Shown piece after piece: positions 19,678 to 45,282 of a DNA stretch of 45,837 nt. A program made the position numbers and the translations under genes. The notes under the pieces are model-generated. The model made no database searches. It was given only the letters and a program-made list of their open reading frames with translations, and was not told where the DNA came from. Where the stretch lies: NCBI GenBank assembly GCA_946610035.1, contig CAMOCC010000015.1, forward strand, positions 1-45,837, written 5' to 3'. Within the stretch, counting starts at the first letter, position 1. The number at the start of each line of letters is the position of its first letter. The stretch comes from an uncultured Verrucomicrobiota bacterium. Its GTDB lineage: Bacteria > Verrucomicrobiota > Kiritimatiellia > RFP12 > UBA1067.

Positions 19678-19723
19678 ATCCCACAATAGAGTGATATACT
19701 TCATGTCCGTGATATGATATAAT
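19678..19723 (+). promoter_or_regulatory. Glycan box plus extended -10 of the GH97-GH29 gene
   Basis: ATCCCACAATAGAGTGAT (19678-19695; left half perfect, right half degenerate), 22 bp, then TATAAT (19718-19723) preceded by TGA. The ATG (19731) is 7 nt after the last T, implying a leaderless mRNA. Confidence 0.65.
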
Positions 19724-19730: not shown

Positions 19731-22700
19731 ATGAACGTTAAAAACACAATTGTTGTCCTGTGGGCTGTCGCGAGCTGCGGCGCATTGCGCGCCGGGGAAC
19801 TTGCCGCGAACGGCGTCGAAGTGAACGGAAAGGTCGAGGCCAAGTGCGAATGGCGCCGCTTCGACGACGGGAGCGCCGTGAGATACGTGCTTCCAGAAGG
19901 AGCGCGGCGGATAAGCCGCGAACTGACGGAGTGGAACCTCCCTGAGGACGCCACGGTGTGGTTCCAGGGCACGGACAGGGGCGGCTTCGCCGACTACGAG
20001 GCTCCGTACGAGTCGTGCAAGGTGGGCGAGCTTCCGGTCGATCGCATCCTTTCCCTCCCCGTGACGGCGAAGCTTGCGGACGGAACTTACCGCATGATGA
20101 CCGAGGCGAACGTCGTCGACTACACCGATCTTGCGGTGAAGTACGCTGGCGGCGGAAAGTTCGTCGCGTACTACCATGCGGACAGGAACGGCTTCGACCA
20201 GAGCGGGGAGTCCGTCACGCCGTGGCGCGTGATGATCGTCGCGAAGGACCTTCAGACGCTGTACGGAAGCGACATGGTGCGCCGTCTCTGCCCTGAGGCT
20301 CCCGCAGAGCGCGCGAAGGCCGTCCGCGAGCGTTTCGCGAAGCCCGGACGCTGCATCTGGCAGTGGCTACCCGCCGGCGCGCCGAAGTTCAACGAGCAGA
20401 AGGACTGGTACAACCGCACCAAGGCGCTTGGATACGAGTACTACCTCATCGACGAAGGCTGGCGCGGATGGGGTGACGACACGACGCGCTGGACGAAGCT
20501 GAAGGAGTGCATAGACTACGGCAACTCGATCGGCGTGAAGACTTTCATCTGGGTGCATTCCAACGAACTGATGAATCCTCAGGCGCGCAAGGAGTACCTC
20601 GCGAAGACAGTCGCCGCAGGTGCCGTCGGAATAAAGATCGACTTTATGCCCCCGCCGAGCTTCAGGATCATGAAGTGGTACGAGGAGACGCTTGCGGATA
20701 CTTTCGCCGCGGGGTTGATCGTCGATTTCCACGGTGCGGTGAAGCCAACGGGACGCGAGCGCTTCTGGCCGCACGAGCTTGCGCGCGAGGCGATTCGCGG
20801 ACACGAGTACCACATCACCCGCTACAAGCGTGTGCTGCCGTTCGAGCACGATACGATACTTCCGTTCTGCCGCTTAGTTCAGGGACACGGCGACTACACG
20901 CCGATGGTGTTCGAGAAGAGCCAGCTCATCCACTTCACATGGGCGCGCCAGCTGGCGCAGGGCGTCGTGTATGCGTGTCCGTTCCTCTGCTTCGGCGACT
21001 TCCCGCTGAACTACCTGAACAATCCGGCGCTCGGGACGATACGCTCGCTTGCTGCCGTATACGACGAGACGCGCGTGCTTGCGCCGTCCGAGATAGGCGA
21101 ATGCGTGGCGCTCGCCCGTCGCAAGGGCAGCGAGTGGTTTGTCGCTGTCGAGAACGGCGCGGAACCGCGCGAATTCGACATTCCGCTGGACTTCCTCGTT
21201 GGGACCTTCGAGGCTTCCGTCTTTATGGACGCGCCGGATCGTCTCGACGCCTATACGACGGACTTCAGGACTGTGAGGAAAGGGGATGTTCTGCATGTGG
21301 CGATGCGCGCGGGCGGCGGCTATGTCGCGCACCTGAAGCCCATCAAGGGCGGACAGTCGTACGCTCCGGACTGGGAATCGCTCTCCCGTCACAAGACGCC
21401 GACGTGGTACGAGAACGCGCGCTTCGGAATCTTCTGCCACTGGGGCATGCAGTGCGCGGCTGAGGATGGCGACTGGTATGCGCGGTCGCTCTACGACCCG
21501 AAGCACTGGCAGGGCCGCCACCACCGCGAGCGGTTTGGCGACCCGAGGGACTTCGGCGCGAAGGACCTTGCGAATGCCTGGAAGGGCGAGAACTGGAACC
21601 CCGACGAGCTTTGCGCGCTTTACAGGAAGATGGGCGCAACGTTCATCCTCGCCATGGCGAACCACCACGACAACTTCGACAACTGGGACTCGAAGTACCA
21701 GCCGTGGAACTCCGTCAACATGGGGCCGAGACGCGACGTTCTCGGCGAGTGGAGCGCTGCGGCGCGGAAGAACGGACTCCGCTTCGGCGAGAGCTTCCAT
21801 GCCGCGCATGCCTGGACGTGGTACGAAGTCGCGCGCGACTACGACGGGCTTATGACGAAGGCCGACGGCAAGGGCAAGTGGTGGGAAGGGTATGATCCCC
21901 AGCAGCTCTACTGGCAGAACCACGAGCCGTCGCCGGACTACAAAAACCTTGGGCTCATCCACAGGCGTTGGAACTGGGACAACGGCGCAAGCCGTCCGAG
22001 CGAGGCGTTCATGGAGAACTTCCGTCTGCGCACTATGGACGCGATCGCGAAGTACAAGCCCGATCTCATTTACTTCGACGACACCGTAGTCCCGTTCTGG
22101 CCGATCTCCGACGCGGGACTCAGGATCGTCGCGGACTTCTACAGCATGAACCCGGACGCCGTGGCGGCGGGGAAGGTCTTGAACGAGATGCAGCGCCGCG
22201 CGCTCGCATGGGACGTCGAGCGCGGTACGCCTCCGACTCCGATGTATCCGAAGTGGCAGACCGACACGTGCATCGGAAGCTGGCACTACGAGCGCGGCGT
22301 CTACGAGCGCGGAGGCTACAAGTCCGCCGCGCAGGTGCTGGGGCTTCTCGTGGACGTCGTTTCGAAGAACGGAAATCTCTGCCTGTCGATTCCGATAAGG
22401 AGCGACGGAACGATCGACGACAAGGAGCGCAAGGTGTGCGAGGACATAGCGGCGTGGATGGCTGTCAACCGCGAGGCGCTCTTCGATGCCGATCCATACG
22501 AAATCTGCGGAGAGGGTCCGCAGATAAAGGCCGCGCCGCCGCTCAGCGCGCAGGGCTTCAACGAAGGACGCATCCCGAAGCCGACGAAGGACGACGTCCG
22601 CTACATGAAGTCGCGCTGCGGCCGGAGCGTCTACGCGATCGAGCTCGCGCCCGACGGGCAGGCTCCGCACTGTCCCGCGCTTGAGGCGAAGGGACTGAAG

Positions 22701-22757
22701 CTCGCGAAGTCGCTGAAGGCGCTCCCCGGCATGCCCGCAGTTCACGTTTTCGAGTAA
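19731..22757 (+). CDS. Secreted bimodular glycosidase: GH97 fused to GH29 alpha-L-fucosidase
   Basis: A 1008-residue two-enzyme protein with a signal peptide (about 1-22). Residues 25-540 are GH97: YYLIDEGW (238-244), GIKIDFM with candidate nucleophile D304, DFHGAVKPTGRERFWPHE (332-349). An Asp in KIDF and no inverting-type Glu set fits the retaining (alpha-galactosidase-like) GH97 branch. Residues 548-1008 are GH29: ARFGIFCHWG (563-572), NHHDNFDNWDS (645-654) and LIYFDD with likely nucleophile D783. The last 35 residues (DGQAPHCPALEAKG...) also occur in the relic gene at 28128. Together the modules could strip alpha-galactose and alpha-fucose from one glycan, as in mucin or blood-group-type chains or fucosylated algal glycans; the exact linkage is open. 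Confidence 0.88.
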   Translation: MNVKNTIVVLWAVASCGALRAGELAANGVEVNGKVEAKCEWRRFDDGSAVRYVLPEGARRISRELTEWNLPEDATVWFQGTDRGGFADYEAPYESCKVGELPVDRILSLPVTAKLADGTYRMMTEANVVDYTDLAVKYAGGGKFVAYYHADRNGFDQSGESVTPWRVMIVAKDLQTLYGSDMVRRLCPEAPAERAKAVRERFAKPGRCIWQWLPAGAPKFNEQKDWYNRTKALGYEYYLIDEGWRGWGDDTTRWTKLKECIDYGNSIGVKTFIWVHSNELMNPQARKEYLAKTVAAGAVGIKIDFMPPPSFRIMKWYEETLADTFAAGLIVDFHGAVKPTGRERFWPHELAREAIRGHEYHITRYKRVLPFEHDTILPFCRLVQGHGDYTPMVFEKSQLIHFTWARQLAQGVVYACPFLCFGDFPLNYLNNPALGTIRSLAAVYDETRVLAPSEIGECVALARRKGSEWFVAVENGAEPREFDIPLDFLVGTFEASVFMDAPDRLDAYTTDFRTVRKGDVLHVAMRAGGGYVAHLKPIKGGQSYAPDWESLSRHKTPTWYENARFGIFCHWGMQCAAEDGDWYARSLYDPKHWQGRHHRERFGDPRDFGAKDLANAWKGENWNPDELCALYRKMGATFILAMANHHDNFDNWDSKYQPWNSVNMGPRRDVLGEWSAAARKNGLRFGESFHAAHAWTWYEVARDYDGLMTKADGKGKWWEGYDPQQLYWQNHEPSPDYKNLGLIHRRWNWDNGASRPSEAFMENFRLRTMDAIAKYKPDLIYFDDTVVPFWPISDAGLRIVADFYSMNPDAVAAGKVLNEMQRRALAWDVERGTPPTPMYPKWQTDTCIGSWHYERGVYERGGYKSAAQVLGLLVDVVSKNGNLCLSIPIRSDGTIDDKERKVCEDIAAWMAVNREALFDADPYEICGEGPQIKAAPPLSAQGFNEGRIPKPTKDDVRYMKSRCGRSVYAIELAPDGQAPHCPALEAKGLKLAKSLKALPGMPAVHVFE

Positions 22758-24224
22758 GATCGTAAAAGGACGTGGAGCGGTCAACTCCCCAGCCGCTAGT
22801 ACAATGGTGGTGCGAATGGGTGTGCGAGTTGTGGAGACGCGGCATCTTGCCGCGTTGGGATTGTAGGGTGAAATAATGGAGACGCGGCATCCTGCCGCGT
22901 TGGGATTGTAATTTGGCTGTATTATACGCGGCTGGAAGCCGCGTCTCCAATGGGTGGCGAATGGGTGTGAGAGTTGTGGAGACGCGGCATCTTGCCGCGT
23001 TGTGATTGTAGGGTGCGAATTATGGAGACGCGGCATCCTGCCGCGTTGTGATTGTAGGGTGGCTGTATTATACGCGGCTGGAAGCTCGGCTCCATTTGTA
23101 GCCGCTCGGTCGCTGTTCGGTCGCTGATATAACGCGGCTGGAAGCCGCGTCTCCAATGGGGGGCGAATGGGTGTGCGAGTTATGGAGACGCGGCATCCTG
23201 CCGCGTTGTGATTGTAGGGTGAAATAATGGAGACGCGGCATCTTGCCGCGTTGGGATTGTAAGTTGGCTGTATTATACGCGGCTGGAAGCCGCGTCTCCA
23301 ATGGGGGGCGAATGGGTGTGCGAGTTATGGAGACGCGGCATCCTGCCGCGTTGTGATTGTAGGGTGAAATAATGGAGACGCGGCATCTTGCCGCGTTGGG
23401 ATTGTAAGTTGGCAGTATTATACGCGGCTGGAAGCCGCGTCTCCATTTGTAGCTGCTCGGTCGTTGTTCGGTCGCTGTTCGGTTGCTGATATAACGCGGC
23501 TGGAAGCCGCGTCTCCAATGGGTGGCGAATGGGTGTGCGAGTTATGGAGACGCGGCATCTTGCCGCGTTGGGATTGTAAGTTGGCTGTATTATACGCGGC
23601 TGGAAGCTCGGCTCCATTTGTAGCTGCTCGGTCGTTGTTCGGTTGCTGATATAACGCGGCTGGAAGCCGCGTCTCCAATGGGTGGCGAATGGGTGTGAGA
23701 GATATGGAGACGCGGCATCCTGCCGCGTTGGGATTGTAGGGTGCGAATAATGGAGACGCGGCATCTTGCCGCGTTGGGATTGTAAGTTGGCTGTATTATA
23801 CGCGGCTGGAAGCTCGGCTCCATTTGTAGCCGCTCGGTCGCTGTTCGGTCGCTGATATAACGCGGCTGGAAGCCGCGTCTCCAATGGGGGGCGAATGGGT
23901 GTGCGAGTTATGGAGACGCGGCATCCTGCCGCGTTGTGATTGTAAGTTGGCTGTATTATACGCGGCTGGAAGCTCGGCTCCATTTGTAGCTGCTCGGTCG
24001 CTGTTCGGTTACTGATATAACGCGGCTGGAAGCCGCGTCTCCAATGGGGGTGCGAATGGGTGTGCGAGTTATGGAGACGCGGCATCTTGCCGCGTTGTGA
24101 TTGTAGGGTGAAATAATGGAGACGCGGCATCTTGCCGCGTTGTGATTGTAAGTTGGCTGTATTATACGCGGCTGGAAGCTTGGCTCCATTTGTAACCGCT
24201 CGGTCGCTGCTCGGTTTGAAAGCA
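22758..24224. repeat. REP-like palindromic repeat array (about 27 units)
   Basis: No gene lies here. From about 22833 to 24187 there are, by eye, about 14 forward units GGAGACGCGGCATC(C/T)TGCC followed by GCGTT and about 13 reverse units ACGCGGCTGGAAGCC(GCGTCTCC), set in a longer direct repeat that also holds 'aatggg(t/g)ggcgaatgggtgtg(c/a)gag' and '(t)cggtcgctg' stretches and recurs every 150-200 bp. Some reverse units have decayed to AAGCTCGGCTCC. The arms pair (GCGGCA/TGCCGC, or GCGGCT/AGCCGC), so each unit is a hairpin. The long open frames across the array on the minus strand are products of the repeat. Confidence 0.9.
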
Positions 24225-24270
24225 ATCCCACAATTGTGGGATGCGCGCTCTGACTTTGAAATGTTATAAT
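24225..24270 (+). promoter_or_regulatory. Perfect glycan box plus extended -10 of the SGNH-GH43 gene
   Basis: Perfect 18-bp palindrome ATCCCACAATTGTGGGAT (24225-24242), 22 bp, TATAAT (24265-24270) preceded by TGT. This is the reference copy of the box. AGGAG at 24283-24287 serves the ATG at 24298. Confidence 0.8.
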
Positions 24271-24297: not shown

Positions 24298-26865
24298 ATG
24301 AACAACATAAAGTTTGGCCACCGCCTTCTGCATGCGATATTGCTTGCGGCAGCAATGGCCTGTCTGTCGGCGCAGACAGTCGTCGCTGCACAGGGCGGTA
24401 ATGCATCATCGCTGAAGTGGGTCGAAATCAGCGGGAGCGATGTGGAAGGACGCGGCTGGAGCGACACCGAGATGCCGTTCGACCGCGTGCCGAAGCGCTT
24501 TGCCAAGGCTTTGCCCCGCGTGTGGCAGCACGGCGTATCGTCCACCGGCGAATTCTTCGAGTTCGAGAGCGACACGACGACTGTCGCCGTTCGGACCGAG
24601 CTTGCGATAAACCGCTACGGAGAGCCCAATTTCAACAACAGCGCCTTCTCCGGCACCGACCTCTACGTGTTCGACGAGGGGCGCGGCGAATGGCGCTGGG
24701 CCGGCGCAGCGGGGCACGGCACGCGCTGGCAGAGGAATGCGGAATATGAGCTCGCGAAGGGGCTTTCGCGTCAGAACCGCCGCTTCCGGATGTACCTTCC
24801 GCTCAGGAACAGGCTTGCCTCGCTGCGAGTCGGCGTGGACTCGAACGCCGCTTTCAAGCTTATTCCGCCGCGCGCCGAGAAGCCCGTTGCCTATTACGGG
24901 ACGAGCATCATACACGGTGCGTACAGCATACGACCTGGCCTGGCGCTGACATCGCGCCTGGAACGCAAGGTGAAGCGTCCGTTCCTGAATCTAGGATTCT
25001 CCGGCTCGGCCTGCCTTGAGCCCGAGGCGGCGCAGATGCTCTCCGAACTGGACCCCGCGTTGTTCGTGTGCGACCCGTACCACAACGTATCGTCGGACGT
25101 GATACGAAGGAACTTCGAGCGGTTCTTCGACATTCTCTGCTCGGCGCGGCCCGACACGCCCGTGCTGCTCGTCGGAGCGCCGCCGCTTCTCAAGGGGTGG
25201 CTCTATCCGTCCGTCGCGCGGGAGGACGAGGAGAAGACGCGCCTTTTCGCCGAGCTTTCGCAGAAGGTCGCAGCGCGGCATTCGAATTTCCGCTACATGC
25301 CAGGGGGCGACTTCTACGGCAGCGACGAAGTGTCAATGGACGGCGTTCATCCGAACGACGAGGCATTTGCGAATATGGCCGCAGTACTCGCGCCTGTGAT
25401 ATCAAAGCTCGTCGAGGAAAAATGCTCTTTCGCGAATCCTGTCCTTCCCGCCGACTTCAGCGACATCGACTGCATCCGCAGCGGCAACCGCTTCTATGCG
25501 ATAACGAGCACTCTCCACCTTTCGCCGGGGATGGACGTACTCGAATCGCCGGACATGGTCAACTGGAGAGTTGTTGGACATGTCGTAGACGATACGTCCG
25601 TCTTCGGCGACGACTGGACGTGGAAGAGGATGCGCCGATACGGGCGCGGCGTTTGGGCCGGATGCATCCGCGAGCGCGAAGGAAAGTTCTACTGCTACTT
25701 CGGAACTCCGGACGAAGGCATTTTCGTAGCGACGGCGGAAAACGCCGCAGGCCCGTGGTCTATGCCGCGCAAGATGTCGTTTTTCACCGCTGGATGGGAC
25801 GACACCGGCGTTCTGTTCGACGACGACGGAAAAGGGTATCTCGTAGCGACGCATTTCGCCGGCGGATACAAGACGTATGTCTTCAAGCTGACCGCCGACG
25901 GACTCGACGTCGTCCCCGAAAGCCGCGCCCTCGTCAACGAGGGACACGGACGCGAGGCGAACAAGCTCTACAAGTGGAACGGCACATACTACCACCTCTA
26001 CAGCGAAGTGGCTGGAGGCGGGCGCCGCCTTATGATGGCACGCTCCAAGAACGTGATGGGTCCGTACGAGGAGCGTCGCGTCCTTTCGCATCCGCAGCGT
26101 GAGGCGGACGAACCGAACCAGGGCGGGTTTCTCGTCGACGACGCCGGCAACTGGTTCTTCCTCACGCACCATGGGCACGGCCAGTGGTATGGCCGCGCGG
26201 CGAGCCTTCTGCCGGTGACTTGGATTGACGGCTGGCCGATCGTCGGCAAGCCGGACAAGGACGGCATCGGCACGATGGTATGGAATCCCCAAAAACCCGT
26301 CATAACTGGGAAAGCCGCCATCTTGGCGGCGGTGCCGAAGGGATTCCTTTCCCCCGACTGGGCATGGAACCATGCGCCTCGCCTTGAGAAGGTTCGCATT
26401 AGTGAAGAGCGTCTGGAACTTGACGCGTTTCATCCGTTGAAGCAGGGCGACTTCTTCTCCGTAGGCAACGTCTTCTCGAAGCGCTCGTGGCGAAATGCGA
26501 CGAACGAGTTCTCCGTCTGCCTGTCGACGGCGAAGATGTCCGATGGACAGCGCGCGGGAATCTGCCATTTCGGCAAGGCGTCGTGCGAGTTCGGCGTCAA
26601 GATGGAAGGCGACGCGAAGTCGCTCTACTGGCGCAATGGGAGACGTGACATTGCGTTGGATTGCGAGGTGGGGGAGAAGATCTTTCTTCGCAGCGAGTGG
26701 GGCATGGATGGCGTTGCGCGCTTCGCGTGGTCCCTTGACGGCAAGGAGTGGAAGGACGCGGGCGAGTCCTACAGGATGACGTGGGGAAGCTACCGCGGCG
26801 ACAGGACGGGGCTTTTCACTTACAACGAAAGCGCAGACGCGGGCACTGCGGTTTTCACTGACTGA
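24298..26865 (+). CDS. Secreted SGNH esterase-GH43 glycosidase fusion
   Basis: An 855-residue two-enzyme protein with a signal peptide (about 1-31). Residues 40-195 form a jelly-roll N-terminal region with SGTDLYV, as in SGNH hydrolases of the GxDLY type. The SGNH domain (197-372) has GTSIIHG (S203), GFSGSA, DPYHN and DGVH (348-351). A GH43 domain follows from 380: NPVLPADFSDIDCIR (D389 likely catalytic base), WDDTGVLFDDDGKGY, NEGHGREANKLYKW (acid Glu region). From about 690 a beta-sandwich C-terminal domain starts (WAWNHAPRLEKV...). A REP-like palindrome codes for KAAILAA between GH43 and this domain. Likely deacylates and trims arabinose- or xylose-type side chains; substrate not certain. 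Confidence 0.85.
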   Translation: MNNIKFGHRLLHAILLAAAMACLSAQTVVAAQGGNASSLKWVEISGSDVEGRGWSDTEMPFDRVPKRFAKALPRVWQHGVSSTGEFFEFESDTTTVAVRTELAINRYGEPNFNNSAFSGTDLYVFDEGRGEWRWAGAAGHGTRWQRNAEYELAKGLSRQNRRFRMYLPLRNRLASLRVGVDSNAAFKLIPPRAEKPVAYYGTSIIHGAYSIRPGLALTSRLERKVKRPFLNLGFSGSACLEPEAAQMLSELDPALFVCDPYHNVSSDVIRRNFERFFDILCSARPDTPVLLVGAPPLLKGWLYPSVAREDEEKTRLFAELSQKVAARHSNFRYMPGGDFYGSDEVSMDGVHPNDEAFANMAAVLAPVISKLVEEKCSFANPVLPADFSDIDCIRSGNRFYAITSTLHLSPGMDVLESPDMVNWRVVGHVVDDTSVFGDDWTWKRMRRYGRGVWAGCIREREGKFYCYFGTPDEGIFVATAENAAGPWSMPRKMSFFTAGWDDTGVLFDDDGKGYLVATHFAGGYKTYVFKLTADGLDVVPESRALVNEGHGREANKLYKWNGTYYHLYSEVAGGGRRLMMARSKNVMGPYEERRVLSHPQREADEPNQGGFLVDDAGNWFFLTHHGHGQWYGRAASLLPVTWIDGWPIVGKPDKDGIGTMVWNPQKPVITGKAAILAAVPKGFLSPDWAWNHAPRLEKVRISEERLELDAFHPLKQGDFFSVGNVFSKRSWRNATNEFSVCLSTAKMSDGQRAGICHFGKASCEFGVKMEGDAKSLYWRNGRRDIALDCEVGEKIFLRSEWGMDGVARFAWSLDGKEWKDAGESYRMTWGSYRGDRTGLFTYNESADAGTAVFTD
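26314..26330 (+). repeat. REP-like hairpin inside the GH43 coding sequence
   Basis: GCCGCC-ATCTT-GGCGGC, a hairpin with the same ATCTT loop as the GACGCGGC-ATCTT-GCCGCGTC REP units. It is in frame and encodes AAILAA at a domain boundary. Confidence 0.55.
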
Positions 26866-26894: not shown

Positions 26895-26940
26895 TCCCCC
26901 CAAAAGTGGGATATGTTGACAGTGCAATTTCTGATATTTC
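26895..26940 (+). promoter_or_regulatory. Orphan glycan-box promoter copy
   Basis: TCCCCCCAAAAGTGGGAT (26895-26912), 22 bp, TATTTC (26935-26940) after TGA. It is clearly related to the promoters at 28075 and 36413 but has no gene behind it, so it marks a lost gene or a duplication scar. Confidence 0.6.
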
Positions 26941-27239
26941 CCGACTTTGCCACTTCAATCGCCACAATAAGTGGATTTCAGTCAATGTATACCAGTATGA
27001 TGTCGATCTGTGCATCATAATTTCAATCGTCAAGTGTAGGTTAGGCTGCACTTTTGGAGACGCGGCTTCCAGCCGCGTCAAGTCGCACTCAAAAGATGAG
27101 TGTGCAGTCACTGCGACCCCATGGAGACGCGGCTTCCAGCCGCGTTATATCGGCGACTGAGCGGCGACCCCATGGAGACGCGGCTTCCAGCCGCGTCAAG
27201 TCGCACTCAAAAGATGAGTGTGCAGTCACTGCACCCCAT

Positions 27240-27323
27240 GGAGACGCGGCTTCCAGCCGCGTCAAGTCGCTAAAGTAGTCGCAGACCAATCACTCGATTA
27301 ACGCGGCTGGAAGCCGCGTCTCC
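27240..27323. repeat. REPIN-like element (two inverted REPs)
   Basis: Forward REP 27240-27263, spacer with 'gctaaagtagtcgcagaccaa' kept in all copies, inverted REP 27301-27323. Near-identical copies lie at 45395-45479, 45594-45677 and 45727-45810, 18 kb away. Confidence 0.8.
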
Positions 27324-28074: not shown

Positions 28075-28120
28075 TACCCCCAAAAGTGGGATATATCGGC
28101 AGCGCAATTTCTGATATTCT
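28075..28120 (+). promoter_or_regulatory. Glycan box plus extended -10 of the chimeric relic gene
   Basis: TACCCCCAAAAGTGGGAT (28075-28092), 22 bp, TATTCT (28115-28120) after TGA; the next ATG (28128) is 7 nt on. Nearly identical to the promoter at 36413-36458. Confidence 0.65.
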
Positions 28121-28127
28121 ATACGGC

Positions 28128-28669: not shown

Positions 28670-28897
28670 TTGGCGTCTGTCGTATCTGATTTCAAGCATG
28701 CTGTCTCACGCCGTTTCGGCACCTGCTTTCAGCGTGATTTTTTCGATACTCGCCTGCGCGATGATGCGCACTATGCCGTGAAGTTCCGCTATATCTGCAA
28801 CAATCCTGTTCGAAAAGGCCTTTGCGCCATTGCGCGAGAATGGCCGCATGTCATTGCGTTCTGTCGCGAGACTGGCGAGGAGCTGGAACACAGATAG
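28670..28897 (+). pseudogene. Remnant of a REP-associated tyrosine transposase (RAYT, Y1 family)
   Basis: The C-terminal part of a RAYT/TnpA_REP protein is visible: FQRDFFDTRLRDD and KFRYICNNPVRKGLCAIAREWPHV match the family pattern (W/F)QR-x-FFDHRLR...YI-x-NPVRKGL...WP. The N-terminal half with the HUH motif is missing and no proper start precedes it, so it is inactive. It suggests that the REP families here were once spread by such an enzyme; an active copy may lie elsewhere in the genome. Confidence 0.75.
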
Positions 28898-36412: not shown

Positions 36413-36458
36413 ACTACCCAAAAGTGGGATATATCGGCAGTGCAATTTCTGATATTCT
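36413..36458 (+). promoter_or_regulatory. Glycan box plus extended -10 of the alginate-lyase gene
   Basis: ACTACCCAAAAGTGGGAT (36413-36430; right half perfect), 22 bp, TATTCT (36453-36458) after TGA. The ATG at 36466 is 7 nt on, so the mRNA is probably leaderless. Confidence 0.7.
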
Positions 36459-36465: not shown

Positions 36466-38157
36466 ATGAAAGTTAAACTACTTGCGGCGCTATCATTTCT
36501 TGTCGGCCTTTGCGTTTTTGATGCGAATGCCGAGGTCGGGCGCTTTCAGCATCCGGGCGTCGGGCTGAACCGCGAGCAGCTCGACCAGCTGAAGGCGAAC
36601 GTACAGGGCGGCGTCGAGCCGTGGAAGACCCTCTACGACGCGCTCACGAAGCACGACCACCGCTTTTCGAAGAAGCCGCGTATCTTCGCGCGGCGCGGCG
36701 AGGGGATAACGCAGATCGACAGCCCCGACTTCGACAACCGCTGTGCATGGGATTCCCAGACCGCCTACTACCAGGGCATCATGTACGAGATCACCGGCGA
36801 GGCGGAGTACCGTGAACGCGCGCTTGACTACGTCCGCTGGTTCTACACGCACATCACGGGAGGGCGTCCACACTGGGACTCGCAGTTCCGCTGGCCGAAC
36901 GCCGAGGGATGGTACCTACGCGCGGCGGAGCTTCTGCGCTACACGGGTCCGCAGACGGGTCCGCTTGCGTGGACGAAGGAGGATACGGACGGAGTCAACC
37001 GCTTCATCGCGATAGGACGGGGCTTCTGGTGGGGGCGCTCAACGCTCCTCAACCAGCTGCAGTTCACGCTCGGCGGACCGCTGGCGCGCGCCATCTGGGA
37101 GGACGACTGGGATGCATACTGCGAGATGGTCGAGATCCTTACTGCGAACAAGCAAGGGCCGGTCGGCGAGCGCAATGGCTCAATTCGCGAGATGTGCCGC
37201 CTCGTGACGACGAACGAGCTGACCGGTGCGCAGGTGAAGCCGCACGTACAGTATTCGGAGATGGGACGCGACATCGGGCATCCCTTCCCTGGTGCAGGCC
37301 AGCTCGGAGAAAACCTGACGATTCTCTGGTCGCAGAAGACGCTTGTCGATCCGGTGACGGGAGAAGTGTCCACGAAGAAGGGTGCCGTCGATCCAATCGA
37401 ATTCCTCAAGCACCAGTACCTGCGTGGCGTCAACCAGATTTGCAAATACAACCTTGGCTTCGACATAGAGTGGACGCCCATTGCGATAAACCGCGAGAAG
37501 GGCGACTACTGGAGGCGTCCGGCGAACTGGGGCGGCGGGCGCGGAAGGCTCTCCAGCGAGGTCGACATTGTCTACATGCACTACAAGTGGGGCAGGGGCT
37601 GGGACCTTTCGAAGTCGGAGGAGTCGCGGTACATCGGCTACGCCCTGGACATGAGGGGAGTGGACTATTCTCACGCGTTTCTCTGGATCCCGCAGAAGGC
37701 CGCGGGCAGGTGTACGCTCGAACGGCACGACCCAGGGAAAGACGGCGTGAATCGGTTTGCCGAGTTCATCCAGCCCAGGATGCCGGGGCTTTCGGTGGAG
37801 AGAGACAAGTCCACTGGTGCCAAGTACATCTCTTTCACAGGGAAGTCATTCATCTTTCCGATGTTCCTTCCGTTCCGCTGGCCTCTGCCGAAGCCGGGCG
37901 AGTACACGATCCGCTACCGTTGCGACGGACAGAGCGGGATTGGAATCATAAACCCCGAAGACTACAATACCGAGTTCGCCGATCCTGAAACGTGCGAAAA
38001 GCGTGTGTACGTCGAGAAGGTGAAGCTTCCCGCGACGGGCCGCGAATGGAAGGAGTTCGCCTTTACGCTCAACAACCCGCCGAAGCGCAATCTCGTGAAG
38101 CTTGATTTCCGCACCAAGGGCAAACACCTCGACCTTGAGTGGATTAAAGTCCCCTAA
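36466..38157 (+). CDS. Secreted alginate-lyase-family polysaccharide lyase
   Basis: A 563-residue exported protein (signal peptide MKVKLLAALSFLVGLCVFDA, 1-22). Residues about 25-400 form the alpha/alpha toroid of the alginate_lyase family (HPGVGLNREQLDQLKANVQG, AYYQGIMYEITGEAEYRERAL, LRAAELLRYTG). A C-terminal beta-sandwich (about 445-563) looks like a carbohydrate-binding domain. The family splits uronate-containing chains by beta-elimination; the exact polymer is unknown. ATG 36466 is preferred over an upstream in-frame ATG at 36424 because the signal peptide starts there and the -10 lies just before. The first 360 bp are duplicated in the relic at 28128. Confidence 0.82.
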   Translation: MKVKLLAALSFLVGLCVFDANAEVGRFQHPGVGLNREQLDQLKANVQGGVEPWKTLYDALTKHDHRFSKKPRIFARRGEGITQIDSPDFDNRCAWDSQTAYYQGIMYEITGEAEYRERALDYVRWFYTHITGGRPHWDSQFRWPNAEGWYLRAAELLRYTGPQTGPLAWTKEDTDGVNRFIAIGRGFWWGRSTLLNQLQFTLGGPLARAIWEDDWDAYCEMVEILTANKQGPVGERNGSIREMCRLVTTNELTGAQVKPHVQYSEMGRDIGHPFPGAGQLGENLTILWSQKTLVDPVTGEVSTKKGAVDPIEFLKHQYLRGVNQICKYNLGFDIEWTPIAINREKGDYWRRPANWGGGRGRLSSEVDIVYMHYKWGRGWDLSKSEESRYIGYALDMRGVDYSHAFLWIPQKAAGRCTLERHDPGKDGVNRFAEFIQPRMPGLSVERDKSTGAKYISFTGKSFIFPMFLPFRWPLPKPGEYTIRYRCDGQSGIGIINPEDYNTEFADPETCEKRVYVEKVKLPATGREWKEFAFTLNNPPKRNLVKLDFRTKGKHLDLEWIKVP

Positions 38158-38162
38158 TCAGT

Positions 38163-38265: not shown

Positions 38266-38331
<66 letters not shown>

Positions 38332-38362: not shown

Positions 38363-41300
38363 ATGCAGGAAAACAAGCATATTTCAACCGGTTTGGCAAT
38401 CGCCGCATGCGCTTTGTCGCTTGCGGCTTCTGGCGATGCGTACTGGCCAGGAAGCAAAACTGACGCCTACTGGGAAGACGTTTGGGGCAATACTTCCGAT
38501 CACTATGTTTTCAAGAATATTGACAATGCTACTGTTCGCTTCAGTTCATACACATCACTTCCAGACGGGAAGTCGGTGTGGGTTGACGGTAGTCATGTGA
38601 CGTTCAATCCTGACAATTCAAGTTGCGGTTTGAAGACAACGGGTAACTTCAATAACCTGAGCCTTACCGTGGGGCGCGACCAAGGTGCGGGGTATCTTAC
38701 AATAGAAGACGGAAAGTTTGATTTCTCGACGGCTGTAAACATCGGCAGCGACGGCGGGACGGGTGTAATGGATGTTGATGGCGGCACGATCTCGGCAGCT
38801 TCATGCTGGCTCGGCAGGGCAAACACGGCGTCCGATGGCACCCTGACGATTAACGGCGGAACTATGACGCTTTCAGGAAATCTGGAAATTGGTGTGAAGG
38901 GCAAAGGCAGTGTCGAGGTTGGAAACGGCGGCAGCATAACTGCCGGCACCGAACTCTTTGTCGGCGGATCGGGAGTGTCCGGCAGTAGCGACAAAGGCAC
39001 GGGAACGCTTGTCATCAAAGGCGGCACCGTAACCGTCAATTCGTATTCTAGTATAGGTCGAACCTCAACAGGAACGCTAATTCTCGACGGCGGCTCTTTC
39101 GTTGGTAAGAATGATGTCGACTTTGGTCGGTGGGCGGGTGCGGACGGAACCCTTGACATTTCCGACGGAAAGTTTGTCTCTGAACAGCGCATCTATTTTG
39201 GTCGAGACCCCGGAACTGGCACGATCAATCTTAATGGCGGCGTGGTTGAATGTACGCAACTCATCGTCGGAAAAGGTTCGGGCAATCTCAATCTGAACGG
39301 TGGCACGCTGCGTGCGAGAGGCAATCAGGGAACGTTTATTCAGAGCAGCGGTTCGCTTCCTGTCAAGATCGGGCCTGGCGGTGCCATGTTCGACACGGCA
39401 GGCTATGCGGTTACTGTGCCGGCGACGCTTGGAAACGCCGATGGACTTGTAGGCAACGGCCAGATAGGCAAGAAGGGAACCGGCATGCTCACGATTTCCT
39501 CCAGTCTCGACCTCAACCGCACGTTCAAGTTCGTTATTGACGGCGGAGTTGGTCCGATCGCGCTGACCGGTTCCAACAACACGCTTGGCGAAGGTGCTAA
39601 GATAGCCGTCGCCATCGACCCTGTTGATGCGCTTACCAATACGACTTATGTACTCATGACAGGCATTGACACATCTTACACGAAAGAAGATAATTTTGCC
39701 CTTCCTTCGAACAATGGTTTCTATGCATACACGTGGACTCTTGAAAGCGGAACGCTTTCTGTCTCGTTGGCCGTTTCCGAGAACGCCCCTGTAACAGCAC
39801 GTTATGGTAGTGATGCATGGGAATTCTACAACGGGAATAATACGCTTATCGAAAATGCTGAGCCCTTGGCATGGACAACATACATATTCACGGGTGTTGA
39901 ACCAGAGGGGAATCTTGAGACTATCGGCGTAGGACACAAGGTTGTTCTCGAGGTGGCGAAAGACGGTGATGTCGGCGTCACGAATACTTTCAGTGTGGCG
40001 TCTGTAGCCAATGCCAAGGATGTGACTGTCACTTCGGAGGAAGGTTGCGCGGTGCGTCTTCTTGGTGCTGATGAATCATCTCTTTCAGCAGGGAAGTTTA
40101 CCAACAACGGCACATTGATTCTTGCAGGAACTGTTTCCGCACCTAGTCTGACAATCGGTGGAACGGGGCGTATTGTCGTGGAAAACGGCGCGGTCGTTAC
40201 GATAGAAGCAGAGCATACTCAACCTACAGAGATCGAGTTAGGCGGTACGATGAAGCTCTCAAAGCCACAGGTGATAGTCGCTTCCTTTTCTGGATATGGC
40301 ACCCTGTCATTGTCTGGAGGATCATTCAGTGTGTGGATTCCTACACCGTTTGGAAGTTTCAATGATGGCGCATTCAAGGGGGTGCTTGAGCTTTGCGCTG
40401 GCGTCAGTTTGGAGGATCATAATGGAGGACTTGGTTCTGCGCAAGTGCGCATGAAGGGAGCATCATTGCGGTTTGGCCATGATAATACCGATGGAACGAA
40501 ATGCTGGAATGACTTTGAGATTTTTGAAGGGACATCAAATACTGTTTATGCAAACAAGGCGAACATGTTTATGTACGGTCAGTTCTCCGGCGACGGCGAG
40601 GTGACGATGCGAACTAACGGGGAACGAGGTCCGCGTCCTTCCGGCGACAACAGCCAGTTTGCAGGCGTGTTTACGCTGAAGCACGTTTCGGATCAGGCCG
40701 ATACGGGTTTCCACGGCGCAAATGCGACGTCCGCCGCAGGCAAGTGGATAATCGATACTGACAACGGCAACCGTGTCGTGGATTTTGCGGATGCGCAGAA
40801 CGAAACGTTTCATGTCGGCGAACTATATCAGCCTGTGGCGTCCACGAGCCTTCGCGTGACGGAGACGGGAACAGGAATTGTCGTTGGAGAAAGAAGCGGA
40901 GGCGAGTCGGTGATAAACGGACCCTTCATCGGCAATGCTTTCTCGTTCACCAAGGTCGGCGCGGATTCCTGGCTGAAGCTTGGTACGACTTTTCAGATGG
41001 TGGATGGTTCGACGCTTACCGTGAGTGCGGGCGGACTTGCGTTCAACCTCCCGACAGATGACACTGTAACCGACCTTACAGGCGATACTGTCACGATAGA
41101 TCCCTCTGTGAAGATCCGCGTCGCGATGACGCAGGCGCAGTTCGCGGCGCTTAACCTTGACGAAGAATATCTCGTCGCGAAGCTGCCGACCAATCCTGGC
41201 TACAAGCCGGAGACGGAGCTGCTTGTGGACGGAGCTGTGCTGAATACTTCCGCAGCGGCAAGGTGGGGCGTCCGCTTCAAGTCGTTCCCTGCCGTCGGCG

Positions 41301-41368
41301 AAACTCCCGCCTACGTCGGCGCGGTGTTGAGACGCAAGTCCAGCGGGGTGATGATCATATTCAGGTGA
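38363..41368 (+). CDS. Autotransporter-type beta-strand-repeat surface protein
   Basis: A 1001-residue exported protein (signal peptide about 1-26). Most of it is a right-handed beta-helix with repeated GTLTINGGTM, GTLILDGGSFVG, GTINLNGGVVE strands, as in autotransporter-associated beta-strand repeats. No C-terminal beta-barrel is seen; the tail (RRKSSGVMIIFR) is short and basic. It may be exported by a separate system or be anchored by an unknown signal. GAGGGAGGA at 38346-38354 gives an 8-nt spacing to this ATG; an earlier ATG at 38355 is out of frame. It heads an apparent operon with the kinase, regulator and lyase genes. Confidence 0.8.
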   Translation: MQENKHISTGLAIAACALSLAASGDAYWPGSKTDAYWEDVWGNTSDHYVFKNIDNATVRFSSYTSLPDGKSVWVDGSHVTFNPDNSSCGLKTTGNFNNLSLTVGRDQGAGYLTIEDGKFDFSTAVNIGSDGGTGVMDVDGGTISAASCWLGRANTASDGTLTINGGTMTLSGNLEIGVKGKGSVEVGNGGSITAGTELFVGGSGVSGSSDKGTGTLVIKGGTVTVNSYSSIGRTSTGTLILDGGSFVGKNDVDFGRWAGADGTLDISDGKFVSEQRIYFGRDPGTGTINLNGGVVECTQLIVGKGSGNLNLNGGTLRARGNQGTFIQSSGSLPVKIGPGGAMFDTAGYAVTVPATLGNADGLVGNGQIGKKGTGMLTISSSLDLNRTFKFVIDGGVGPIALTGSNNTLGEGAKIAVAIDPVDALTNTTYVLMTGIDTSYTKEDNFALPSNNGFYAYTWTLESGTLSVSLAVSENAPVTARYGSDAWEFYNGNNTLIENAEPLAWTTYIFTGVEPEGNLETIGVGHKVVLEVAKDGDVGVTNTFSVASVANAKDVTVTSEEGCAVRLLGADESSLSAGKFTNNGTLILAGTVSAPSLTIGGTGRIVVENGAVVTIEAEHTQPTEIELGGTMKLSKPQVIVASFSGYGTLSLSGGSFSVWIPTPFGSFNDGAFKGVLELCAGVSLEDHNGGLGSAQVRMKGASLRFGHDNTDGTKCWNDFEIFEGTSNTVYANKANMFMYGQFSGDGEVTMRTNGERGPRPSGDNSQFAGVFTLKHVSDQADTGFHGANATSAAGKWIIDTDNGNRVVDFADAQNETFHVGELYQPVASTSLRVTETGTGIVVGERSGGESVINGPFIGNAFSFTKVGADSWLKLGTTFQMVDGSTLTVSAGGLAFNLPTDDTVTDLTGDTVTIDPSVKIRVAMTQAQFAALNLDEEYLVAKLPTNPGYKPETELLVDGAVLNTSAAARWGVRFKSFPAVGETPAYVGAVLRRKSSGVMIIFR

Positions 41369-41375: not shown

Positions 41376-42809
41376 ATGAAAACGAAGACGCTGTCCATCC
41401 TCGCTTGCGCCGCCGCGGCGTTTTGCACGCTGTGCGCCGGCGCATACGAAGTCACCGTCGCGCATGGGAAACGGACCCTGCGCGGCGTAGTGACATTCTC
41501 CGGACAGGACGCGCCGTGTTTTTTCATGCACACCGACGACGGCGAGTGGTGGCGCGCCGGCCTCGCCCGAGATGTGTCGGCTCCGTCGATAGGCGATGTC
41601 GTTGAGGTCGGCGGCGAGGTCCTGCGCCAGACCGTCAACAACAGAATCGACCACTGCTCCGTCAAGGTAGTGGGTCATGACGAAAGCCTCATCCCAGGAT
41701 ACGAAAACGCCACACCGACGCAACTCAACGAGCATCCCGCGTCCGGCTCGCCCGGACCGGACCGCTTCGCGCGCCGCATCTCTGTCGAGGGATGTGTCTT
41801 CGATGTCAACAGACGGCACAGCTCGGTGCAGCTTCAGATATCGGATGGGGGCGGAAGCATTTCCGTTTCCTTCGCGATCCCTTCCAGCAGTCCTCTCCCG
41901 GCAGGGCTGGAGACTGGCGCGATCGTGCGCGCGAAGGGCACTTACGCCTACGTGACGCTTCCGCTGCATGCTACGCAGCCGGTGTTCACTGGCATTACGA
42001 TGCCGACGCTGATGCTTTCGTCCCCCGCCGACCTGGAGGTTCTGACGGCGCCGCCGTTCTGGACGCCGCTTCGGCTTTCCATTCTCGGCGGAGGAGCGAT
42101 AACGGTCTGGCTGGCGCTCGTCGTCTGGGTGGCGGTTCTCCGCAGGACGGTGAACAGGCAGGTCAAGGTCATCGAGCGCGCGCTGCGAGAAAACGCAATT
42201 GCGGACGGAGTGCGGCGCGAGAGGCTTAGGCTCTCGCACGATCTCCACGACGACTTCCAGCAGCTTCTCGCCGGTACGATGTTCCAGATTTCGGCGGCGC
42301 TCAACTGGCTTGCCGAGGACAATGCCGACAAGGTGCGCGAGCAGCTCGAAAAGGCGACTGCGAACCTTGTCCATACGCAGAGCCAGCTTCGTACTGTCCT
42401 CTGGGGGCTACAGGAGGAGAGCGAGGGCCCGGGACGCCTGATCGACCTCTTCCGGTACGTCTCGGGTAGAATGGCCCATTGGGAGGGTGTGGTAAGCATC
42501 ACGAGCACCGGGCGCGAGCCTGCGCTTGCGAGGACGATCGCGGGCGGGCTGCTGATGATACTCCAGGAGTCCGTCGGCAACGCGATAAAGCACGGAGGAG
42601 CGCGCCACGTCGACGTTTCGGTTGCATTTGAAAAGGGGCGGCTCGTGCTTGTCGTAAAGGACGACGGCTCTGGATTCGACGTTACGGCGCATTCGCGCGG
42701 ACTGGGGCTCGTAAGCATGGGTGACCGTGCCCGCGCCCTCGGCGGGACGTTCTCGCTGACCAGCGAACTGGGAAAGGGAACGGAAGTTAAAGTGGAGGTT
42801 CCGGTATGA
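41376..42809 (+). CDS. NarL-type sensor histidine kinase with exported OB-like sensor
   Basis: A 477-residue membrane kinase. Signal peptide 1-21, an exported beta-rich domain of two OB-like halves (about 25-225), one membrane span (235-256), a HisKA_3 dimerisation helix with the phospho-acceptor in LSHDLHDDF (H291), and an HATPase domain with the N-box QESVGNAIKHGG (N403) and G1 DDGSGFD (431-436). The stop overlaps the response-regulator start. It starts 7 nt after the surface-protein stop, so expression is tied to that gene's phase-variable promoter. The exported sensor may detect a glycan or product made by the flanking enzymes. Confidence 0.88.
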   Translation: MKTKTLSILACAAAAFCTLCAGAYEVTVAHGKRTLRGVVTFSGQDAPCFFMHTDDGEWWRAGLARDVSAPSIGDVVEVGGEVLRQTVNNRIDHCSVKVVGHDESLIPGYENATPTQLNEHPASGSPGPDRFARRISVEGCVFDVNRRHSSVQLQISDGGGSISVSFAIPSSSPLPAGLETGAIVRAKGTYAYVTLPLHATQPVFTGITMPTLMLSSPADLEVLTAPPFWTPLRLSILGGGAITVWLALVVWVAVLRRTVNRQVKVIERALRENAIADGVRRERLRLSHDLHDDFQQLLAGTMFQISAALNWLAEDNADKVREQLEKATANLVHTQSQLRTVLWGLQEESEGPGRLIDLFRYVSGRMAHWEGVVSITSTGREPALARTIAGGLLMILQESVGNAIKHGGARHVDVSVAFEKGRLVLVVKDDGSGFDVTAHSRGLGLVSMGDRARALGGTFSLTSELGKGTEVKVEVPV

Positions 42810-43402
42810 TCAAGGTAATGATAGTCGACGACCATCCCGTCGTGCGCGAGGGACTCGAGGCGATGCTCGAAAGCGCGCACGGATTCACGGTCGTCGCTTC
42901 CGCTGCCGACGGGGAGTCCGCCGCTAGCAAGGTCGTGGAAGCGCTTCCCGACGTCGTGGCGCTTGACATACGACTGCCGGGGATGGACGGATTCGCTACA
43001 CTTGCCAAGCTGCGGAGGTTCATTCCGGACATCAAGGCCATTCTTCTCGCCGGGATGCCGCTCCAGGAGGAGCTTGAGCGCGCGCGCAAGATGGGCGCTT
43101 CCGGCTATCTGCCCAAGAACGTCGACCACAAGCGGCTTCTCCAGGCGTTCCGCGACGCCGTTGCGGGCGCTCCGTTCATCGAGGAGGAGCTGCCGAAGGT
43201 CCCGTGCATACTGTCGCAGCGCGAACTCGACGTGCTTCGCTATCTTGCTCTCGGAAAGACGCGCGAGGAGGTTGGTGTCATACTCGGCATCGGGTTCGAG
43301 ACCGTCCGTTCGCACACCAGGGCGATAATGGCGAAGCTCGACGTGCCGAACACAGTCGCCGCAGTGAACCGGGCTTACGAAATGGGAATAATGCGTCCGT
43401 GA
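42806..43402 (+). CDS. NarL/FixJ-family response regulator
   Basis: A 198-residue regulator: receiver with D8, D9, phospho-acceptor D54, K104, and a LuxR-type HTH (about 134-195, SQRELDVLRYLALGKTREEVG...). The Thr/Ser switch position after the fourth strand (AILLAGM) is Ala82, an uncommon change that could alter the phosphorylation switch. It is coupled to the kinase by ATGA. It is a candidate to bind the glycan boxes in this window, though NarL-type sites usually have shorter half-sites; this link is inferred. Confidence 0.88.
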   Translation: MIKVMIVDDHPVVREGLEAMLESAHGFTVVASAADGESAASKVVEALPDVVALDIRLPGMDGFATLAKLRRFIPDIKAILLAGMPLQEELERARKMGASGYLPKNVDHKRLLQAFRDAVAGAPFIEEELPKVPCILSQRELDVLRYLALGKTREEVGVILGIGFETVRSHTRAIMAKLDVPNTVAAVNRAYEMGIMRP

Positions 43403-43429: not shown

Positions 43430-45256
43430 ATGCTTATGAATCGGCCAATGAACGGCATCCGCTTCATCCGCTACGTCATATGCACCTTGCTGTGGGTTGC
43501 GGCATTTTGCATGGCGGACACGGCGCTATGCGCGCCTGCGAAATCGGTTGATCCGCGTGCGCCGCGGAACTCGGACGGCAAGGTGTTCATCCACCCCGGC
43601 ATCAGCTACACTCAGGGCGACCTCGACCGCATGAAGGCCATGGTCGACGCCGGAGTGCAGCCGTGGAAGCGTTGCTTCGACGCGCTTGCGGGCTCTCGCT
43701 GGGCCGGGCACGGCGTAAAGGCTCCGTGGCGCGGCGAGGACCTGCGCGGATTCAACAACACTATCGGATTCGACGGGCGCTTCGCGCACGACCAGGCGCT
43801 CATGTGGCGCCTCACGGGTGACGAAGGCTACGCGCAGCGGGCCCGCGATCTCATCAATGCGTCCGTCCTCTACAAGGACCCGTGGAAGACTGGAACCCCC
43901 GCGCTCGACAACGGCAAGATATTCCTCCTCGTCGAGGCGGCGGAGCTCATCCGCGACTACCCCGGATGGGCCGAGGCGGACAAGGCGAAGTTCCGCAAGG
44001 TCCTCAACGACGTGTTCTACCAGGCGATAAAGAACGGCGACTCCGCGCGCTGGGGCAACCAGGGGCTTAGCGGATTCAAGGGACTCCTCGCGATGGCGAT
44101 CTTCCTCGACGACACGAAGAAGTACGACCGCGTGTGGAACTATCTCATGGGGCTCAGGCACCGCCCGGACGACGAGCCGTATCCGACGGGGCCCCTGAAG
44201 CTTCCGTGGTGGCCGAGCGAGACGTGGGGCCACAACTCGGAGTGGGGCGAGTACTGCCATTCGCGCAAGGGCCGCTTCAGCCGGGGCAACGAGGAGGACT
44301 GGGGATTCGACGAGCTCCTGAAGTACTACATCTACAAGAACGGACAGTGCGAGGAGACGTGCCGCGACATGGCGCACACGAACTACGGGCTCTTCAACTA
44401 CGTCGGCATTGCCGAGATGTTCTGGAGCCAGGGCGACGACCTCTACGGCGCGCTCGACAACCGCATCCTGCTCGGGCTCGAGTGGAACCTGCGCTACAAC
44501 CTCAGCGACTGGATGCCGACCGGGTATACGGACAAGGAAGACGAGGCGACGTTCGAGAACGGACTCTTCTACAAGGCCTACACCCGCTCCGCCCGCTGGA
44601 CGGCGCTCAAGCCGTCCCCGCATGGCCGCGGCGCGCAGGGCGGCCCTGGAGCACCGCGCACGGCCGCGCTGATGCACTACTCGATCGTGAAGGGCGTTCC
44701 CGACGAAAAGTGCAAGTGGCTCAGGAAGTCCGTGGAGGACACGCTTGCGAACAACGGCTGCGAGACGTGGGGCTTCGGCCCGAACTGGTACTACGAATAC
44801 TGCGGATGGGGAACGCTCACGAAGACGCGCACTAAGTGGATGCGCGGCGATCCCGTGACCTGGGTGAAGGGCAGGCGCGTCTCGGGCGCGCACAAGCTCC
44901 CTGGCGTTATCCGGATCTCCGACTGGGACTACTATCCGCTTGAGGATCGTCCGCGCACCCACCGCCATAAGCAGAAAGGCCGCTGGTCCGACGGAGACTG
45001 GGCGCTCTACACGGTGACTTGTCCCGAGGCTAAGGCGATGAAGGTGAGCATGGTCTATACGTCCCACGGAAGGGCGGAGGTCGTAATCGCGTCCGACGGC
45101 GGCAAGCCGGTGAGCAAAGAGCTTCTGATCACCCGCGGCGAGCGGCATGTCGAGACACTCGGAAGGATCAAGGTTCCCGCAGGCGCGAGCGTAATCCGAT
45201 TCGCCGTCAAGAAGTCAGCGCCAGGCTTCAAGCCCCTCGGCCTTAAGTTCGAATGA
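43430..45256 (+). CDS. Secreted alginate-lyase-family polysaccharide lyase (second)
   Basis: A 608-residue exported protein with a signal peptide (about 1-36). An alpha/alpha toroid of the alginate_lyase type (about 50-400) has the same opening as the lyase at 36466 (FIHPGISYTQGDLDRMKAMVDAG versus HPGVGLNREQL...), with NNTIGFDGRFAHDQALMW and AELIRDYPGW. A C-terminal beta domain (about 500-608) follows. The two lyases are only distantly similar and probably act on different bonds. AGGAG at 43421 fits both ATG 43430 (4 nt) and ATG 43436 (10 nt). It ends the operon with the two-component system. Confidence 0.8.
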   Translation: MLMNRPMNGIRFIRYVICTLLWVAAFCMADTALCAPAKSVDPRAPRNSDGKVFIHPGISYTQGDLDRMKAMVDAGVQPWKRCFDALAGSRWAGHGVKAPWRGEDLRGFNNTIGFDGRFAHDQALMWRLTGDEGYAQRARDLINASVLYKDPWKTGTPALDNGKIFLLVEAAELIRDYPGWAEADKAKFRKVLNDVFYQAIKNGDSARWGNQGLSGFKGLLAMAIFLDDTKKYDRVWNYLMGLRHRPDDEPYPTGPLKLPWWPSETWGHNSEWGEYCHSRKGRFSRGNEEDWGFDELLKYYIYKNGQCEETCRDMAHTNYGLFNYVGIAEMFWSQGDDLYGALDNRILLGLEWNLRYNLSDWMPTGYTDKEDEATFENGLFYKAYTRSARWTALKPSPHGRGAQGGPGAPRTAALMHYSIVKGVPDEKCKWLRKSVEDTLANNGCETWGFGPNWYYEYCGWGTLTKTRTKWMRGDPVTWVKGRRVSGAHKLPGVIRISDWDYYPLEDRPRTHRHKQKGRWSDGDWALYTVTCPEAKAMKVSMVYTSHGRAEVVIASDGGKPVSKELLITRGERHVETLGRIKVPAGASVIRFAVKKSAPGFKPLGLKFE

Positions 45257-45282
45257 CAATGGCTTCTAATATGCACCCCTTT

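Follow-up and report, generated by a model that had tools for sequence, protein, structure and literature searches.

A palindromic box at fixed distance from the -10 marks a predicted glycan-use regulon in a Kiritimatiellae-type lineage

What does a perfect 18-bp palindrome do when it stands just upstream of the promoter of a secreted glycan enzyme, and how many other genes share it? The question arises from a contig of an uncultured Verrucomicrobiota bacterium, analysed here as a window of 45,837 nt (G000:C15, one of the 191 contigs of a home genome of 3.03 Mb that is 88% complete), in which all the boxes and genes described below lie on the + strand. The palindrome, ATCCCACAATTGTGGGAT, occupies 24225..24242 and is followed after a gap of 22 bp by TATAAT (24265-24270), with TG in the extended position (TGTTATAAT, 24262-24270). 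Behind it lies a gene (24298..26865) for a fusion of a GxDLY/SGNH esterase with GH43 and GH43_C2 domains, as assigned by Pfam, and with a signal peptide according to our script rule; among four loci, relatives of this gene were found in Lentisphaerae bacterium SIG88 (96% over the whole length) and in Kiritimatiellae bacterium Tb.RUG.298 (93% over residues 377-855). Coordinates and gap were re-found as originally predicted, so that this observation is confirmed, and the site scores 41.5 against the matrix described below (38.3 when left out of it).

The original prediction also placed related boxes at 19678, 28075, 36413 and 26895, with the same 22-bp gap, and at 38287, with 21, and all six were recovered at these positions. 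The box at 19678..19695, a copy of the palindrome with 3 mismatches (score 41.4; 38.1 left out), precedes a GH97-GH29 fusion enzyme (19731..22757; domains by Pfam, signal peptide by the script rule), with its extended -10 at 19715-19723 (TGATATAAT; TATAAT 19718-19723) at a gap of 22 and the ATG 7 nt downstream of the -10; 15 of its 18 positions are kept in the promoter of the G008 orthologue. Two further boxes, each 22 nt from TATTCT with TG in register, stand at 28075..28092 (score 37.6), where the gene behind is truncated (relic ORF from 28128; -10 TGATATTCT, 28112-28120), and at 36413..36430 (score 36.4; 33.1 left out), where the same -10 ends at 36458 and the ATG of a secreted, alginate-lyase-like gene follows at 36466. 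The 563-aa product of the latter (36466..38157) has no Pfam match of its own; in BLASTP about 220 of its residues are similar to the Alginate_lyase-matching protein encoded from 43430. The orphan box at 26895..26912, shortly past the GH43-SGNH stop codon, has a weak -10 (TATTTC) at 22 nt and no gene seen behind it (score 27.2), and is kept in the relative G054 (position 7590 of L219; score 26.6). At 26895, 28075 and 36413 alike, GTGGGAT is followed by 19 nt and then TG (TGATATTCT or TGATATTTC). The sixth site, at 38287..38304, is a half box (poly-C, then TAAAGTGGGA; score 22.1) before a surface-protein operon; its GTGGGA lies 22 nt from TATAAT (38327-38332), that is, in a register one base short (21), while the orthologous promoter on contig C66 of G054 has one extra C, a full box and a 22-bp gap. 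Directly upstream of and overlapping the half box, of which only the right half is kept, is a run of 28 C (38267-38294), which may be prone to slippage and could in that way alter the promoter.

The six copies are all real, but they are not six independent sites. The boxes at 28075 and 36413 fall within one 300-nt duplication, 95% identical, of which 26895 shares the promoter part; because these three copy one duplicated promoter, the window holds four independent sites. We also observed, in 28053-28378 and in L119, that the same promoter and first codons (MKVKL) precede the alginate-lyase-like gene and the relic in the window and a GH43 gene in G054; the promoter and signal-peptide start therefore seem to move as a module. 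When the window was scanned on both strands with a matrix of 47 sites (which includes 24227, 19680 and 36415 directly and the relative's identical copy of the 28075 site), the six boxes were the top six; no seventh site scored 15 or more, the next best being 14.6 at 16317. The 24225 palindrome, at 3 mismatches, had no match in 100 dinucleotide shuffles of the window. The intergenic regions also carry many copies, in two orientations, of a REP-like inverted repeat (TGGAGACGCGGC..GCCGCGTC; 22809-24144, 27030-27326, 38162-38189 and 45243-45836), and near these arrays 28700-28900 may hold the relic of a REP-associated transposase-like gene.

The box is an 18-bp dyad with a consensus of about A/C-T/C-CCC-C/A-C-A/T4-G-T/G-GGGAT. 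It ends exactly 19 nt before TGnTATAAT, equivalent to 22 bp before the -10 hexamer, and its centre falls at -43.5 when TATAAT is set at -12 to -7 of an inferred +1. Aligned on the -10, 49 sites have a C-rich left half, an A/T centre, a right half G(T/G)GGGAT followed by G, and an extended TGn, with T at -17 and G at -34 conserved; no -35 consensus was seen in this alignment, where no column from -32 to -19 rises above 0.22 bits, and the -10 is weak at several sites (TAGAAT, TAAAAT, TATACT). The central four positions are 81% A/T over the 47 matrix sites, and the columns outside the search pattern (the A/T centre, the -34 G and the -17 T) are thus conserved too. The dyad is symmetric about a single centre in 4.5 of 8 pairs, and in fewer when the centre is shifted; no covariation of the two half boxes within sites was detected, halves swapped between sites giving equal symmetry. 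For the 24225 box the best reading is 7-4-7 (ATCCCAC-AATT-GTGGGAT), and some other sites (TACCCGA-AA-GTGGGAT) can be read as 7-2-7; by eye, the CCC and GGG centres are 11 bp apart in the 24225 type and 9 in the TACCCGAAAGTGGGAT type, and C runs allow both. These promoters have the dyad position, the rigid spacing and the weak or missing -35 of a class II activator-dependent promoter, and the predicted fit of a centre near -43 to a class II activator site holds up, as judged from the geometry.

Variants of the dyad were seen as well. Three signal-peptide genes of G008 (C126 7999, C160 6058 and C188 6399) are preceded, at a gap of 22, by CCCTAC-N4-GTAGGGAT, as if used by a paralogous regulator. 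A third variant, the perfect dyad ACCCCTCATATGAGGGGT and the near-perfect ACCCCTCATGTGAGGGGT, occupies the same position before related secreted proteins in L033 and L043 (G019:C48 and G006:C1). Finally, a leaderless secreted gene with GTGGGGTGAT, in which the gap from GTGGGGT to TG is 22, recurs in four genomes (L107 and L138, that is, G030:C15 and G055:C124, together with G045:C25 and G050:C34), in each with a more distantly related NarL-type regulator about 2.9 kb away.

The original prediction called for a genome-wide matrix scan, and the outcome depended on how the search was framed. In the home genome alone, the strict pattern GTGGGA-N8..38-TATAAT gave 4 matches against 4 in the reversed control, so that a degenerate box and relatives were needed for the regulon to be seen. 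A search from AAAGTGGGA to TATRNT gave one match. With 3 mismatches allowed, the whole palindrome has two matches in the home genome, both within the window, and it is rare throughout the genus: the 61 genomes have it at 19 places, the control at 4. An extended -10 stands at exactly 22 nt in six of the 19 (two in G000, one in G008 and three in G054); each of these six is followed by a gene with a signal peptide according to the script rule, two of the genes being orthologues of GH97-GH29 and GH43-SGNH of the window, and the remaining 13 look like chance. The degenerate pattern CCCACNNNNGTGGGAT-N19-TGNTATAAT, at 3 mismatches, gave 38 matches in the 61 genus genomes against none in the reversed control, and 51 against 3 in 161 genomes of the order. 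Of these 51, 38 lie in the genus and 13 in the 53 genomes from the rest of its family, and 47 genomes of other families had no match. The right half with the -10 was found 81 times in G000, G054 and G008, against once in the control.

Since a reversed control says nothing about spacing, a separate search was run with a free gap (GTGGGRT-N4..34-TGNTANAAT). Among its 79 rows a gap of 19 to TGn occurred 15 times, against a mean of 2.13 for the other 30 gaps, which speaks against the random spacing named beforehand as grounds for dismissal; the Poisson p of 9e-9 for this excess is generous, because some rows are orthologous promoters. In the box-rich genomes G000, G054 and G008 gap 19 holds 7 of 9 rows; in the other 58 genomes it accounts for 8 of 70 rows and gap 20 for 7. 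All p values given here are overstated, because related genomes are not independent.

The genes behind the box are not a random draw. For each promoter the first gene was taken by the script rule as the longest ORF within 160-260 nt, and signal peptides were called from hydrophobicity with a simple rule in place of a trained predictor. By these rules 30 of 36 genes at CCCACNNNNGTGGGAT-N19-TGNTATAAT sites have a signal peptide, compared with 18 of 41 control promoters carrying GTGGGRT at the wrong distance (p 4e-4). The 36 remain from the 38 matches after two rows (G039:C1 and G009:C180) with a 44-mer identical to that of G029:C51 were dropped; for the 28077 row the identical G054 promoter was used, its gene being the G054 GH43 and not the window relic, and was counted as a signal-peptide gene. 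Pfam glycoside hydrolase or lyase domains were found in 18 of 42 site genes (40 site proteins and the two window fusions) against 2 of 20 controls (one-sided Fisher p 0.008), these being 20 of the 41 control promoters in list order with the short or doubtful L139, L100 and L103 skipped; with four more site genes scanned the count is 21 of 46. The families are GH2, GH16, GH31, GH43, arabinofuranosidases (ASD1/Alpha-L-AF), GH95, GH97, GH106, GH127 and heparinase-like proteins. Other site genes encode LamG, DUF4861, phosphodiester glycosidase, MFS, phosphomannose isomerase, beta-lactamase-family and secretin-family proteins, and further ones large secreted proteins with no Pfam match. High scorers in G000 include the GH97-GH29, GH43-SGNH, GH2, GH95, GH127, heparinase-like, LamG and surface-protein genes. 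Fusion-type glycan enzymes do carry the box, then, but so do genes for surface proteins, an MFS transporter, a phosphomannose-isomerase-like protein and histidine kinases; and the gene classes are not evenly represented, since glycan enzymes with a signal peptide and surface proteins predominate downstream, in support of the glycan-use regulon reading.

The proportion of signal-peptide genes also falls with the box score. In 79 of the 81 right-half rows of G000, G054 and G008 (two identical rows being dropped), it was 36/40 at leave-one-out scores of at least 25, 7/11 at 15-25, 11/22 at 5-15 and 1/6 below 5; however, 31 of these rows sit in the 47-site matrix, whose sites were partly chosen for secreted genes (of 56 listed sites 9 were excluded, one as a duplicate and most others because the gene seemed non-secreted or was poorly called). 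Given this partial bias towards secreted genes, the comparison was repeated with a function-blind matrix of 35 distinct CCCACNNNNGTGGGAT-N19-TGNTATAAT sites: among the 60 rows outside it, a signal peptide was called for 25 of the 31 scoring at least 15 and for 12 of the 29 with lower scores (p 0.003). Among 104 other promoters there was no excess, with 1/3 at a box score of at least 5 (n=3) against 34/101. The start codon lies 5-9 nt past the -10, where +1 is expected, in 22 of the 40 sites scoring at least 25, but also in 33 of the 104 other TGNTATAAT promoters; close starts are therefore a habit of the genus and not of the regulon alone. Starts 6-7 nt past the -10 hexamer were seen at 19731 and 36466 in the window and in L012, L121, L125, L129 and others. 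Such positions imply that leaderless transcripts may be widespread in the genus.

Five orthologous promoter pairs were compared, and in three of them the conserved stretch starts right at the 5' border of the box: the flank shares 3, 1 and 0 of 10 positions, the box 15, 14 and 16 of 18. Relative to the spacer the box is less conserved in the GH43-SGNH pair (15/18 versus 19/19) and in the GH95 pair (14/18 versus 19/19), and slightly so in the heparinase-like pair (16/18 versus 18/19). Sites elsewhere have unrelated flanks and spacers across contigs and genomes.

In the window the half box at 38287 heads an apparent operon that contains a signalling pair: a secreted surface-type protein of 1001 aa without Pfam match (38363..41368), a HisKA_3-type sensor histidine kinase (41376..42809), a NarL/LuxR-type response regulator with receiver and GerE HTH domains (42806..43402), which is a candidate box-binding protein, and, last, an Alginate_lyase family protein (43430..45256). 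Similar pairs stand beside boxes elsewhere. On contig C45 of G054 a box is followed by a surface protein, a CotH/LTD protein and a kinase and regulator 59% and 65% identical to the window pair; on contig C36 of the home genome the order is box, heparinase-like gene, kinase, regulator (52%), second box and GH95; and on contig C108 of G005 it is kinase, regulator (51%), box and GH106. In the G054:C66 orthologue of the window operon, the pair is absent between the surface protein and the alginate lyase. A profile of these four regulators was searched against the 61 genomes, and neighbourhoods of 5.6-46 kb were fetched (the follow-up box scan covering the strand of the regulator gene, the 47-site matrix scan both strands). 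The closest regulators (tier 1, at least 319 bits) occupy 8 places, 6 of which have a box scoring at least 15.5 nearby; four of the eight built the profile, and the new places with boxes are G054:C142 and G008:C108. The HisKA_3 kinase and receiver/GerE regulator thus stand together beside boxes in the window (41376-43402) and at five further tier-1 places. Of the other two, G019:C155 has a weak box only (14.5) and G032:C23 none in the available 4.9 kb upstream and 116 nt downstream, where the contig ends. Boxes accompany 2 of 8 regulators in tier 2 and 3 of the 7 fetched in tier 3. A box also lies right before genes identified as kinases by Pfam, with the start 6 nt past the -10, in L204 (15.8), L216 (19.6) and, weakly, L217 (14.4). 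Of the 38 pattern matches, 24 fall in the six genomes that have a tier-1 regulator, which make up 12.3% of the bases (binomial p 2.6e-13, kinship not removed); G000 and G054 are the two genomes with most matches, and together with G008, also box-rich, they look like close kin. Without these three the co-occurrence is 4 of 18 (p 0.013).

How, then, is the box to be read? That its spread is mere copying of one promoter segment, or of a mobile repeat, is hardly credible: copying accounts for three of the six window copies and for the G054 promoter that stands, first codons included, before a different gene, yet other sites have unrelated flanks and spacers, conservation ends at the box edge in three of five pairs, and the element, which the original prediction would have given up had it proved a mobile repeat away from promoters, precedes unrelated genes on many contigs and in many genomes. 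The fixed gap to the -10 could suggest a part of the core promoter itself, such as a -35 region recognised by an alternative sigma factor. This, too, we regard as very improbable, as the distance from GTGGGAT to the -10 exceeds a normal -35/-10 gap by about 5 nt, and the element is an 18-bp dyad before an ordinary extended -10. Moreover, 122 other TGNTATAAT promoters average -16.6 bits at the equivalent position, so that the box is no general core-promoter element; shifts of +1 to +12 (the comparison covered 0 to +12) gave slightly lower values still, -19.2 to -22.8 bits. Sugar regulons are often repressed, and a palindrome that reaches into the upstream portion of a promoter could serve as an operator, at which a repressor at about -43 would block polymerase until released by a sugar; a gap that is rigid across unrelated genes argues against it, and the missing -35 consensus and weak -10 boxes fit a promoter that needs help, which makes an operator unlikely. 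Rigid gap, missing -35 and weak -10 boxes together make class II activation the most economical reading. In our view, therefore, a transcription activator probably binds the box as a dimer and switches on genes for secreted glycan enzymes and surface proteins, which form a dispersed regulon in this Kiritimatiellae-type lineage. Such a dimer would bind at -43.5, just upstream of the extended -10, and touch RNA polymerase there in class II geometry; this contact would explain the rigidity of the gap.

Which activator this would be is a more even matter. The best candidate, on circumstantial grounds, is the NarL/LuxR-type response regulator at 42806, already among the options originally proposed; its box-linked homologues lend it support without proving the assignment. 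We give about an even chance to a scheme in which a phosphorylated regulator of this family acts at the box, kinase 41376 senses glycan supply, and the presence of regulator genes in box-linked clusters produces positive feedback. Somewhat less probable, and still a serious contender, is the same regulon under a different activator, of AraC, CRP, LacI/GntR or MalT-like type. Most sites are distant from any related response regulator (one lies within 1.5 kb of only 3 of the 56 listed sites), 14 of the 38 pattern matches fall in genomes that lack a tier-1 regulator, and in G008 a GntR/Peripla_BP_3 gene stands directly upstream of the box and GH97-GH29 gene. As a general regulator, however, this GntR protein was rejected: no relative of at least 62% identity was found in G000 or G054, where the best reach at most 41% and 44%. 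The classes searched systematically were NarL-type regulators, kinases and this one GntR; at E 1e-30 or better, the home genome alone has 25 regulator matches. We hold tentatively, as a possibility a little weaker again, that many paralogous HisKA_3/NarL pairs per genome form a distributed glycan-sensing network. Each pair, with feedback on the operon that encodes it, would read 18-bp dyads that share one geometry and sit at -43.5 in extended -10 promoters, many of them leaderless, and variants such as CCCAC..GTGGG, CCCTAC..GTAGGG and ACCCCTC..GAGGGGT would split the traffic.

Known systems offer partial parallels. LuxR and TraR use dyads of 18-20 bp at about -42 to -45, and resemble the system described here in dyad length, class II position and GerE-type HTH; they differ in being ligand-bound regulators, and their dyads are unrelated in sequence to the box. 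Polysaccharide utilisation in Bacteroides depends on hybrid two-component and SusR regulation, with control mostly local, by locus, whereas here one box extends across dispersed loci and a separate kinase and NarL-type regulator are found. The likeness lies in dedicated regulators that control secreted glycan enzymes and surface proteins (PMC3878776). A study in E. coli reports that NarL can by itself activate the ogt promoter derivative ogt1052, through a single inverted repeat that has its centre at -44.5 and thus 32 bp upstream of the -10 (PMC9314961). The box here is likewise a single inverted repeat, at -43.5 and 31 bp upstream of the -10; the NarL sites there are 7-2-7 and the signal nitrate, whereas the 24225 box reads best as 7-4-7 and the signal would be a glycan (PMC9314961). 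Within the Kiritimatiellota, the main text on Pontiella agarivorans similarly reports kinases (PF07730, PF02518) and response regulators near sulfatase clusters; in that text 'promoter' does not occur and 'regulon' occurs once, in a reference title (PMC10880615). Our literature search found no promoter box or glycan-gene regulon described for Kiritimatiellae.

In summary, the element appears to be an activator-box regulon of an ordinary kind, in a lineage for which none was found in the literature searched. Its sharp matrix joins scattered, unlinked enzymes and surface proteins of no known function, from uncultured bacteria, into one predicted regulon, suggests a likely role for proteins without any family match, and names a candidate regulator that is open to in vitro tests on synthetic DNA. 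The network of paralogous pairs, if it is true, would mean that this lineage has its own way of controlling glycan use, separate from the control of polysaccharide utilisation in Bacteroidetes.
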